From: an uncultured Bacteroidota bacterium
GTDB taxonomy: Bacteria > Bacteroidota > Bacteroidia > Flavobacteriales > Flavobacteriaceae
Length of the DNA: 54,654 nt
Direction of reading: 5' to 3'
Assembly: GCA_902593075.1 (NCBI GenBank)
Contig: CACJHA010000005.1
Span: 1 to 54,654, forward strand
Shown here: positions 26,742 to 29,768 of the stretch, one piece after another
How the letters are laid out: the number at the start of each line of letters is the position of its first letter
Numbering within the stretch: the first letter of the stretch is position 1
The notes under the pieces: generated by a model
Told to the model about the DNA's origin: nothing
Database searches by the model: none
The model's input: only the letters and a program-made list of their open reading frames with translations
Position numbers and translations under genes: made by a program

Positions 26742-27131
26742 ATGTTATTTAGAATTAAAATATTATTTATTCTTTTATTTTTCATACAAAGTAGAATAGC
26801 CCACGGGGTTAATATTCATTTTTGTGGGAATCTTGTAGCAGATTTTTCGTATTTACATGATGCTGAAGGTTGTGATATGCATAATCCTAAATCTGAAAAA
26901 GATCATCATATTTCTCAAAAAACTTGTTGTCATGACAAGGTAATTATTTACGATAAAAATCAACTTGAAACTGAATCCAAAACAACCTCGCTTTTCAACA
27001 CAGTAAGTAGTCAATCTTTTTATGAAAATATATTTATTGTAGACAAATATATCTTACCAAAGATACCAGAATTTCCACCGCCCAAAATACCTTCTTTTAA
27101 AAAAAATTGCTCTCTTGTTTTTTATGGATAA
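26742..27131 (+). CDS. HYC_CC_PP-like small secreted protein
   Basis: Signal peptide, HFCG, KTCCHDK, EFPPPKIP - matches the motif order that names the family. Confidence 0.75.
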   Translation: MLFRIKILFILLFFIQSRIAHGVNIHFCGNLVADFSYLHDAEGCDMHNPKSEKDHHISQKTCCHDKVIIYDKNQLETESKTTSLFNTVSSQSFYENIFIVDKYILPKIPEFPPPKIPSFKKNCSLVFYG

Positions 27132-27181
27132 TTAAATAGATATCTACGCTTTATATCTAATTAATTTAAATCTATAAAAAA

Positions 27182-29416
27182 ATGAAAATCATATTATCAA
27201 TTTTAAACTTTTTATTAATATTTAATGCTCTTTCAGCTCAAGAGAATATCAAAGGGCAGATTTTTTCAAAATCCAGTGAAAATTTGACGCCTCTCCCTGG
27301 AGTAAATATATATTGGCTAAATACTTCAATAGGAACTATTTCTAATGAAGATGGTAAATTTTCTATTTCAACAAATAGTAAAACAAACAAACTTGTATTA
27401 AGTTTCTTAGGATTTCAAACAGATACTCTAAAGATTGAAAAAAAGTCAAACATCTCACATGTAATGAAAGAGAGTAACCTTGGTGAATTAGATGAAATAG
27501 AAGTCACACAGAGAAGAAAATCTTTAAAGAGATCATATTTAAGTGCTCAAAATATAACCAAAATAAGTAGTGAGGAGTTATTAAAGGCTGCATGTTGTAA
27601 TTTATCTGAAAGTTTCGAAACAAACCCTTCAATTGATATTAATTTTTCGGATGCTCTGACAGGTACTAAACAAATAAACATGCTAGGACTTTCTAGCCCA
27701 TACATAATGATAACTCAAGAGAATATTCCTTTTGTAAGAGGAGCTTCTCAAGTATACGGTCTTACATACACTCCGGGACCTTGGATTGAAAGTATCCAAG
27801 TAACTAAAGGAACAGGAAGCGTTGTTAACGGTTTTGAAAGTATTGTCGGTCAAATAAACGCCGAATTAAAAAAACCCAGTTTAAGTAATCCATTTTTTTT
27901 AAATGCTTTTGCATCTGTAAACGGGAGAAAAGAATTTAATTTTCATTTTAACAAAACACTCAGTCAAAAGTTTAGTTTAGGAGTTTATGGGCATACAAGT
28001 CAACGTGTTATGATAACTGACAATAATGATGATGGGTTTTTAGACATGCCGAAAACTAGGCAAATAAATTTTTTGAAAAGATTACAATATACTGATGCAG
28101 AGAATGGTTTTGTAGGGTTTCTTAGTCTTAGGTTTTTAAATGATAAAAAAATATCTGGAGAAACTACTTTTAATGGAAGAAGTAATAATCTCAACTTTTC
28201 AAGTTGGGGGAGTGAAATTTTTACACAAAGAGCCGATGCAAGTTTAAAAATTGGATACGTGTTTCCTTTGATAACCTATCAAAGTATAGGTTTTCAAAGT
28301 GCTTATTCAAAACATAACCAAGAGTCATTTTTTGGTGTTAGAGATTACAATATCTCTCACGAAAGTTTATATAGCAACTTGATTTTCAATTCTATTATTT
28401 CTAATACTAAACACAAATTTAAAACCGGATTAAATTTTTCTAGAGATATTTATTTTGAAAGTGTTGATACGGATTTGTACAAGAGGACGGATGATGTTTT
28501 TGGAATGTTTTTTGAGTACACTTATGATAATCTTGAAAATCTTAATTTGGTTGCAGGATTAAGATTTGATAGCCATAATAACATTGGCACATTTTTATCT
28601 CCACGTCTTCATATAAGATACCAAGGATCGGAAAAACCTACAATCTTTCGATTTTCTGTTGGCCAAGGCAGAAAAGTAGGTAACATATTCGCTGAAAACC
28701 AAAATATTTTTGCATCGAATAGAACAATTCAAATTTTTCCTTCAAACGGTTCTATCTATGGCTTAAAACCTGAAATAGCGTGGAATTATGGACTAAGCAT
28801 CACTCGTAATTTTAACTTATTCAATAGAAATGCTGATATTATATTTGATTTTTACAATACAACTTTTTTGAATCAAGTTATAGCAGACTTTGAAAAGTTA
28901 CAATACATTCAATTTTACAATTTGTCCGGTAAAAGCTTTTCAAAAAGTTTTCAAATCGAATTGAATTACAAGGCTTCGAACAATATTTCAACAAGAATTG
29001 CATATAAGAACGAAAATGTTAGAACATCTTACAGGGATGGATTTAAAAGAAAACCATTAAGACCTTACTCAAGATTTTTCTTCAACATTGAGTATAACAC
29101 AGTTAACACTAAGGGAAAAGGGTGGAGGAATGATTTCACATACAATATTGTTGGAAAACAAAGGATTCCATCGAATTTGTTCCATTCAAACGGTTTTGTA
29201 GCATCGTCCTACAGCTTAATAAATTTTCAAACAGCAAAAGTGTTTTCATCTAAATTTGAATTATATTTAGGTGGAGAAAATTTGTTGAATGTGAGACAAA
29301 AAAATCCAATTATTGCCGCAGATAATCCTTTTGGAAGAAATTTCGACGCAAGTTTAGTATATGCACCAGTTTTTGGAAGATTTATCTATAGTGGAATAAG
29401 GTTTAACTTAAATTAA
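27182..29416 (+). CDS. TonB-dependent receptor with N-terminal carboxypeptidase-regulatory-like domain (probable metal receptor)
   Basis: Signal peptide, CarboxypepD_reg-like N-terminus (PLPGVNIYWLNTSIGTISNEDGKFSI), plug, beta-barrel ending in aromatic FNLN. Confidence 0.92.
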   Translation: MKIILSILNFLLIFNALSAQENIKGQIFSKSSENLTPLPGVNIYWLNTSIGTISNEDGKFSISTNSKTNKLVLSFLGFQTDTLKIEKKSNISHVMKESNLGELDEIEVTQRRKSLKRSYLSAQNITKISSEELLKAACCNLSESFETNPSIDINFSDALTGTKQINMLGLSSPYIMITQENIPFVRGASQVYGLTYTPGPWIESIQVTKGTGSVVNGFESIVGQINAELKKPSLSNPFFLNAFASVNGRKEFNFHFNKTLSQKFSLGVYGHTSQRVMITDNNDDGFLDMPKTRQINFLKRLQYTDAENGFVGFLSLRFLNDKKISGETTFNGRSNNLNFSSWGSEIFTQRADASLKIGYVFPLITYQSIGFQSAYSKHNQESFFGVRDYNISHESLYSNLIFNSIISNTKHKFKTGLNFSRDIYFESVDTDLYKRTDDVFGMFFEYTYDNLENLNLVAGLRFDSHNNIGTFLSPRLHIRYQGSEKPTIFRFSVGQGRKVGNIFAENQNIFASNRTIQIFPSNGSIYGLKPEIAWNYGLSITRNFNLFNRNADIIFDFYNTTFLNQVIADFEKLQYIQFYNLSGKSFSKSFQIELNYKASNNISTRIAYKNENVRTSYRDGFKRKPLRPYSRFFFNIEYNTVNTKGKGWRNDFTYNIVGKQRIPSNLFHSNGFVASSYSLINFQTAKVFSSKFELYLGGENLLNVRQKNPIIAADNPFGRNFDASLVYAPVFGRFIYSGIRFNLN

Positions 29417-29420
29417 AATT

Positions 29421-29768
29421 ATGAAAAAAATTATTTTTTTAATATTTATATCTTCTATGGTTTTTTCCCAAAAAAAAGATATTGTAGAGGAATCCTTTGA
29501 AGTTAACGGGGTATGCAAAATGTGTAAAGCACGAATTGAGAAAACTGCATTTAAACAAAAAGGGGTAAAAAATGCTGAGTGGGATATAAATAATCATTTG
29601 CTTACAGTTCTGTATGACAAAAGTAAACTTGATATATATCAAATTCACAAATCAATAGCTAAAGTAGGTCATGATACTTCAGAGGAGCAAGCACCGGATG
29701 AAATTTATGACAAATTACCAATGTGTTGTTTGTACAATAGAGAAGAAATAAAAAAAGGTAAACAATAG
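29421..29768 (+). CDS. Heavy-metal-associated (HMA) domain secreted protein
   Basis: Signal peptide; VNGVCKMCKARIEKTAFKQKGVKNAEWDINNHLLTVLYD ferredoxin-like HMA fold with CxxC. Confidence 0.88.
   Translation: MKKIIFLIFISSMVFSQKKDIVEESFEVNGVCKMCKARIEKTAFKQKGVKNAEWDINNHLLTVLYDKSKLDIYQIHKSIAKVGHDTSEEQAPDEIYDKLPMCCLYNREEIKKGKQ

Follow-up and report, generated by a model that had tools for sequence, protein, structure and literature searches.

An operon pairing a TonB receptor with an invariant plug Cys-Cys pair and an HMA protein: a candidate copper acquisition system of Bacteroidota

Introduction

Three neighbouring genes in the window (the whole 54,654-nucleotide stretch of DNA analysed here, from an uncultured marine member of the Flavobacteriaceae) raise the question of whether their products, each bearing a pair of adjacent cysteines, act together on a metal and, if so, on which metal and in which direction. 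The first-pass annotation of this DNA had located the three reading frames and the three Cys-Cys pairs, and both were confirmed at the nucleotide level: Cys62-Cys63 in the HYC_CC_PP protein (HYC), Cys138-Cys139 in the receptor and Cys102-Cys103 in the HMA protein. We consider it likely, on comparative grounds, that the three genes form an operon acquiring a thiophilic metal, most probably copper, by handoff from the cysteine pair of the receptor plug to the HMA protein. The features concerned are the following.

26742..27131, plus strand: HYC_CC_PP family secreted protein, 129 aa
26925..26930, plus strand: codons of HYC Cys62-Cys63 (KTCCHDK)
27182..29416, plus strand: CC-plug TonB-dependent receptor, 744 aa, with signal peptide, CarboxypepD_reg_2, plug and barrel (Pfam PF13715, PF07715)
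27593..27598, plus strand: codons of plug Cys138-Cys139 (KAACCNLSESF)
29421..29768, plus strand: periplasmic HMA protein, 115 aa, with CxMC and C-terminal CC-Leu-Tyr (PF00403, 33.2 bits)
29514..29525, plus strand: HMA metal motif C32-K-M-C35
29724..29729, plus strand: codons of HMA Cys102-Cys103 (LPMCCLY)
29749..29782, no strand assigned: intrinsic-terminator-like hairpin at the operon end

Results and discussion

Organization and setting of the operon

The three plus-strand genes occupy positions 26742–29768 in the order HYC_CC_PP, TonB receptor, HMA, and the short gaps between them (50 and 4 bases) make it very likely that they constitute an operon. They are flanked by minus-strand genes, a GAF/fRMsr-like gene upstream and groEL downstream. 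The operon ends in a strong hairpin, located ahead of the oppositely oriented groEL and past the HMA gene, with A- and T-runs on both sides; its 15-pair stem was reported on the minus strand, and the plus-strand fold has an energy of −15.8 kcal/mol (z −4.5). A sigma-70 promoter scan gave no more matches than shuffled sequences. The location between fRMsr and groEL is common to several Flavobacteriaceae, which suggests vertical inheritance.

Gene order varies beyond this setting: it is HYC-TBDT-HMA in Flavobacteriaceae and HYC-HMA-TBDT elsewhere, or the genes are fused. The first-pass annotation had derived a handoff relay from the gene order; this argument was rejected, as the order differs among lineages. 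The relay itself gains its support from Cys-Cys conservation, gene co-occurrence, fusions and copper-related neighbours.

The receptor and its plug cysteines

The window receptor has the plug-before-β-barrel architecture of TonB-dependent receptors, with a plug scoring 33.5 bits against PF07715 and a profile that matches the barrels of Cir and FepA among PDB structures. Orthologues (E ≤ 1e-100), mostly 47–57% identical, are encoded in 153 of 251 Flavobacteriaceae genomes, which does not support a cassette special to the genome carrying the window. At a looser threshold (E ≤ 1e-60), homologues were found in 112 of 393 Bacteroidota genomes, and most genomes of this sample are without the receptor system.

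The loci compared were picked by receptor similarity and not by neighbouring genes. The plug Cys-Cys pair is kept in 111 of 113 receptor loci across Bacteroidota, down to about 27% identity, usually within the motif K-A-A-C-C-N-L-x-E-S-F; the two loci without it are the weakest and most distant matches (26–27% identical), look like another receptor subfamily and were set aside, so that family counts, including the 111/111 for the pair, refer to 111 loci. Both Cys138 and Cys139 are invariant in alignment A1 (33 rows, 38% mean column identity). They are the only cysteines of the window receptor, and in 99 of the 111 receptors the pair provides the only two cysteines of the stretch that begins 40 residues ahead of it and runs to the C-terminus. 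Beyond the start Met, the only Cys, Met or His columns conserved at 70% or more are C138, C139 and four His. At 30 control loci for other TonB receptors, drawn from six of the genomes compared, the first 330 residues contain no Cys-Cys pair. The AlphaFold model of the receptor, built on a five-row alignment, was unusable (mean pLDDT 31), and the position of the pair in the plug is thus deduced from sequence only.

Three further observations concern receptors. The barrel loop D-x-N-x-D-G-F-x-D-x-P is nearly invariant (window 28019–28051, receptor residues 280–290) and resembles a calcium-binding loop. A different TonB receptor subfamily (L002/L184 3690–5951, L129 and L130) has no plug Cys-Cys pair and carries C-N-V-C or D-C further along the plug. 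Finally, a genome of the same genus as that of the window (G066, 88% complete) has an HMA-MauE gene and no detectable receptor, reflecting either loss or an assembly gap.

The HMA protein and its fusion to receptors

The product of the third gene has the PF00403 fold with CxxC that characterizes HMA metallochaperones. Its structure prediction was good only for the core, which matches CopZ and MerP structures; in the fold search the top match was CopZ (6ff2), and ZiaA was matched in addition to MerP. The CxxC motif is kept in 93 of 93 HMA neighbours of the receptor and is invariant in alignment A2. The C-terminal pair is likewise invariant in A2, an alignment from which the three of 93 HMA neighbours without it were left out or for which they were unsampled.

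In six loci (L091, L097, L100, L102, L104 and L105), the receptor chain itself begins with an HMA unit, complete with its own CxMC and CC-x-Tyr tail. Two of these fusions (L102, L104) contain two HMA units and apparently no CarboxypepD_reg domain, and another (L105) has a His-rich linker; the fused HMA of L091 and L105 scores below the Pfam cut-off, and its call there relies on our own profile and the motif. In a maximum-likelihood tree, the fused state needs at least two changes on well-supported branches, which suggests that the HMA-receptor fusion arose at least twice, in two separate clades. In a TonB receptor, the side with the Ton box is turned towards the periplasm, and the tethered HMA unit would therefore sit where the metal must emerge.

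Linkage and co-occurrence across Bacteroidota

An HMA gene is linked to the receptor in 98 of 111 unique loci, adjacent in 92 and fused in six, and HYC lies upstream of the receptor in 94 of 111; at the 30 control loci for other TonB receptors, neither an HMA nor a HYC neighbour was found. Conservation of the cysteine pairs, which the first-pass annotation had wished to see checked together with co-occurrence of the genes, extends to the partners: the pair is present in 93 of 94 HYC neighbours and, at the C-terminus, in 90 of 93 HMA neighbours, counts biased towards CC-bearing proteins as the HYC and HMA profile seeds were chosen with CC motifs. Among the 393 Bacteroidota genomes, an HMA protein with the C-terminal pair (HMA-CC) occurs in 100 of 110 receptor genomes and 35 of 283 others (Fisher p about 1e-50), and receptor and HYC also co-occur (p 3e-23), both p-values overstating independence given that the genomes are related.

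The window HYC passes the cut-off of the NCBIfam family NF047658 HYC_CC_PP (50.5 bits, cut-off 28), a name that gives no function and for which no paper was found in the literature searched, mostly without subscription journals. All three motifs, HxC, CC and PP, are present, as HFC (26–28), CC (62–63) and PP (113–114), and near-invariant in alignment A3. In this alignment, Cys28, Cys44 and Cys62-Cys63 are invariant and mean column identity is just 20%.

An inner-membrane HMA-MauE protein is encoded in 22 of 111 receptor clusters. MauE proteins are linked with disulfide chemistry, and these clusters would fit an alternative in which the Cys-Cys pairs, together with MauE-like proteins, act as a thiol-disulfide redox chain through vicinal or shuttled disulfides and control folding or gating of the receptor instead of transferring metal. 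However, HMA-MauE occurs in just 27 of 393 genomes, far below the receptor (110), and the common partners of the receptor are HMA domains and copper genes; we regard a redox chain as very improbable. The same count rules out HMA-MauE as a universal inner-membrane partner.

In the window's own genome, which is 65% complete, no HMA domain was found besides those of the HMA protein and of HMA-MauE. At L184 14859–16018, the HMA-MauE fusion gene (G000 C24, 15275–16018) adjoins a gene whose product is small, secreted, of His/Cys type and ends in APP.

Copper context

Relatives of the two small proteins bear on the nature of the metal. Among HYC paralogues located away from the receptor, 16 of 20 sampled loci lie beside a CusA/CzcA-type RND pump (the one pump checked scores 808 bits against TIGR00914, cut-off 701). 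Transmembrane segment 4 of all 16 HYC-adjacent pumps carries an AIGxMVD-like motif and none has DFG, a combination that we take to mark CusA-type (Cu/Ag) and not CzcA-type (Zn/Co/Cd) pumps. Clusters of HYC, HMA-CC and CusA were seen at L193, L195, L196 and L205, HMA-CC stands beside CusA at L194, and at L187 and L188 it is fused to the C-terminus of CusB-like adaptors. Close to the receptor itself, a copper-translocating P1B ATPase (TIGR01511 above cut-off) is adjacent at L063 and L112, and CPC-bearing partial ATPases occur at L023, L040 and L067. At L058 and L059, additional copies of the receptor-HMA pair have as neighbour a tyrosinase that bears a sorting tail for T9SS. Tyrosinases are a family of copper enzymes. 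These CusA-type neighbours, CusB fusions, copper P1B ATPases and tyrosinases, beside paralogues or receptor operons, point to copper (or Cu/Ag) as the best-supported substrate over zinc or mercury, in line with the thiophilic metal proposed at first. The HYC and HMA-CC proteins together look like a portable periplasmic copper module, joined in Bacteroidota to the importer proposed here or else to an efflux system of the Cus type.

That the substrate is some other transition or thiophilic metal (Hg, Zn, Ag, Cd) appears doubtful to us. Among NCBIfam models, MerTP matches the HMA protein best, with a score under the cut-off, and the fold search with this protein returned MerP and ZiaA, but the leading structural match is CopZ, no mer genes were noticed in the loci examined, and the neighbours (CusA-like TM4, TIGR01511 ATPase, tyrosinase) are of Cu/Ag type.

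The main rival to import concerns direction. The set could serve copper/silver defence, sensing or scavenging periplasmic Cu(I)/Ag(I) and passing it to Cus pumps or CopA, with the receptor recovering or sensing the metal in the service of homeostasis. The presence of HYC and HMA-CC in Cus clusters and on CusB agrees with such a role, as do the copper ATPases of some receptor operons, these ATPases and the Cus neighbours being parts of efflux systems. Yet the window operon contains no RND pump gene and no CusA match was detected in the 111 receptor loci, many with only 1.5 kb flanks, and the tyrosinase beside a receptor operon requires copper. To our knowledge, all TonB receptors characterized so far are importers, which also speaks against defence. 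We consider this role unlikely, though somewhat less so than a change of metal.

Two other sets of loci are recorded here. At L186, L189 and L190, the partner fused to the HMA-CC unit is of DUF3347 type (Pfam-checked in L186) and has CPMY as a C-terminal motif, which makes for another periplasmic copper-like protein; P-type-ATPase-like genes lie near the fusion at L186 and L190. The window's genome also has a second metal-like cluster (L184, G000:C24, 10239–14530), which perhaps handles zinc or a different metal. Its products are a small, secreted protein of His/Cys type that ends in APP, a lipoprotein rich in His and a TonB receptor; a gene for a PepSY-like protein comes next on the opposite strand.

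Proposed mechanism

Under the import reading, the TonB receptor would carry the metal, as Cu(I) or a copper chelate, through the outer membrane, an inward direction that we infer from the receptor class. The plug pair, in the first plug segment and some 30 residues past the presumed Ton-box region, would act as a metal ligand at the periplasmic exit. From there the HMA protein, with its CxxC and C-terminal pair, may pick up the metal by thiol ligand exchange and serve as a periplasmic copper carrier. The HYC_CC_PP protein could be a second periplasmic copper-binding partner acting as store, buffer or membrane-side acceptor. The copper carried would supply the assembly of cuproenzymes in the periplasm and, in certain relatives, reach the inner-membrane HMA-MauE protein; a heme-copper oxidase is encoded in the window's own genome. 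Taken as a periplasmic/outer-membrane handoff relay for a copper-type metal, this scheme is well supported by the genomic comparisons, the transfer step itself being presumed.

A more general proposition is that throughout this receptor class the plug pair passes the metal by direct thiol exchange to a dedicated, sometimes tethered HMA protein, leaving no free periplasmic metal, and that the same HYC/HMA-CC module serves Cus-type export elsewhere. In our judgement its chances are evenly balanced.

Comparison with known systems

The copper site of OprC consists of plug Cys143 and Met147 (CxxxM) and a barrel HxM (PMC8610252). The OprC/NosA family (TIGR01778) and the window system both have a TonB-dependent receptor; its role in copper handling and the service of a plug cysteine as metal ligand (Cys143 in OprC) are demonstrated for OprC and presumed here. 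The window receptor differs in that its two cysteines are adjacent and lie nearer the Ton box, that neither a Met nor HxM is conserved, and that it is accompanied by HYC and HMA partners and, in relatives, by HMA fusions. Membership of OprC/NosA was rejected: TIGR01778 does not match the window receptor, the CxxxM-HxM site is absent, and nothing above the cut-off of this family was found in seven genomes, the window's own included.

CrtA mediates TonB-dependent copper import linked to heme-copper oxidases (PMC12914433, 2026), an activity that the window receptor may share. It has no conserved Cys or Met, its operons mostly include PepSY_TM proteins, and it is found mostly in beta- and gammaproteobacteria (PMC12914433). 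The window operon has no downstream PepSY_TM gene and its receptor has the invariant pair, which sets it outside this family.

With regard to CusCFBA Cu/Ag efflux, HYC/HMA-CC paralogues of Bacteroidota, beside CusA or on CusB, may fill a CusF-like carrier place, whereas in the window operon a TonB receptor is encoded but no RND pump. The HMA fold and CxxC are shared with the metallochaperones MerP and CopZ, but the window HMA protein is secreted and has an extra conserved C-terminal tail, GHDT...CC-x-Tyr.

A survey of copper genes in the flavobacterium Bizionia argentinensis reported a single OprC-like receptor, along with several CopZ-like proteins of the periplasm, and described no such cluster (PMC11213822). 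The literature searched on HYC_CC_PP, on copper TonB receptors of Bacteroidetes and on HMA-TonB fusions, mostly without subscription journals, yielded no description of the receptor/HYC/HMA system. The receptors therefore appear to constitute a new family of copper-type TonB receptors, unusual for its fusion to a chaperone.

Conclusions

This phylum-wide and apparently undescribed gene set could be a missing route of copper entry in Bacteroidota. It bears on how these bacteria acquire copper and on how a metal leaves a TonB receptor without being freed. With the plug pair as the only cysteines of the receptor, and with a metallochaperone fused to such receptors at least twice in evolution, the exit step becomes accessible to study through just two residues.
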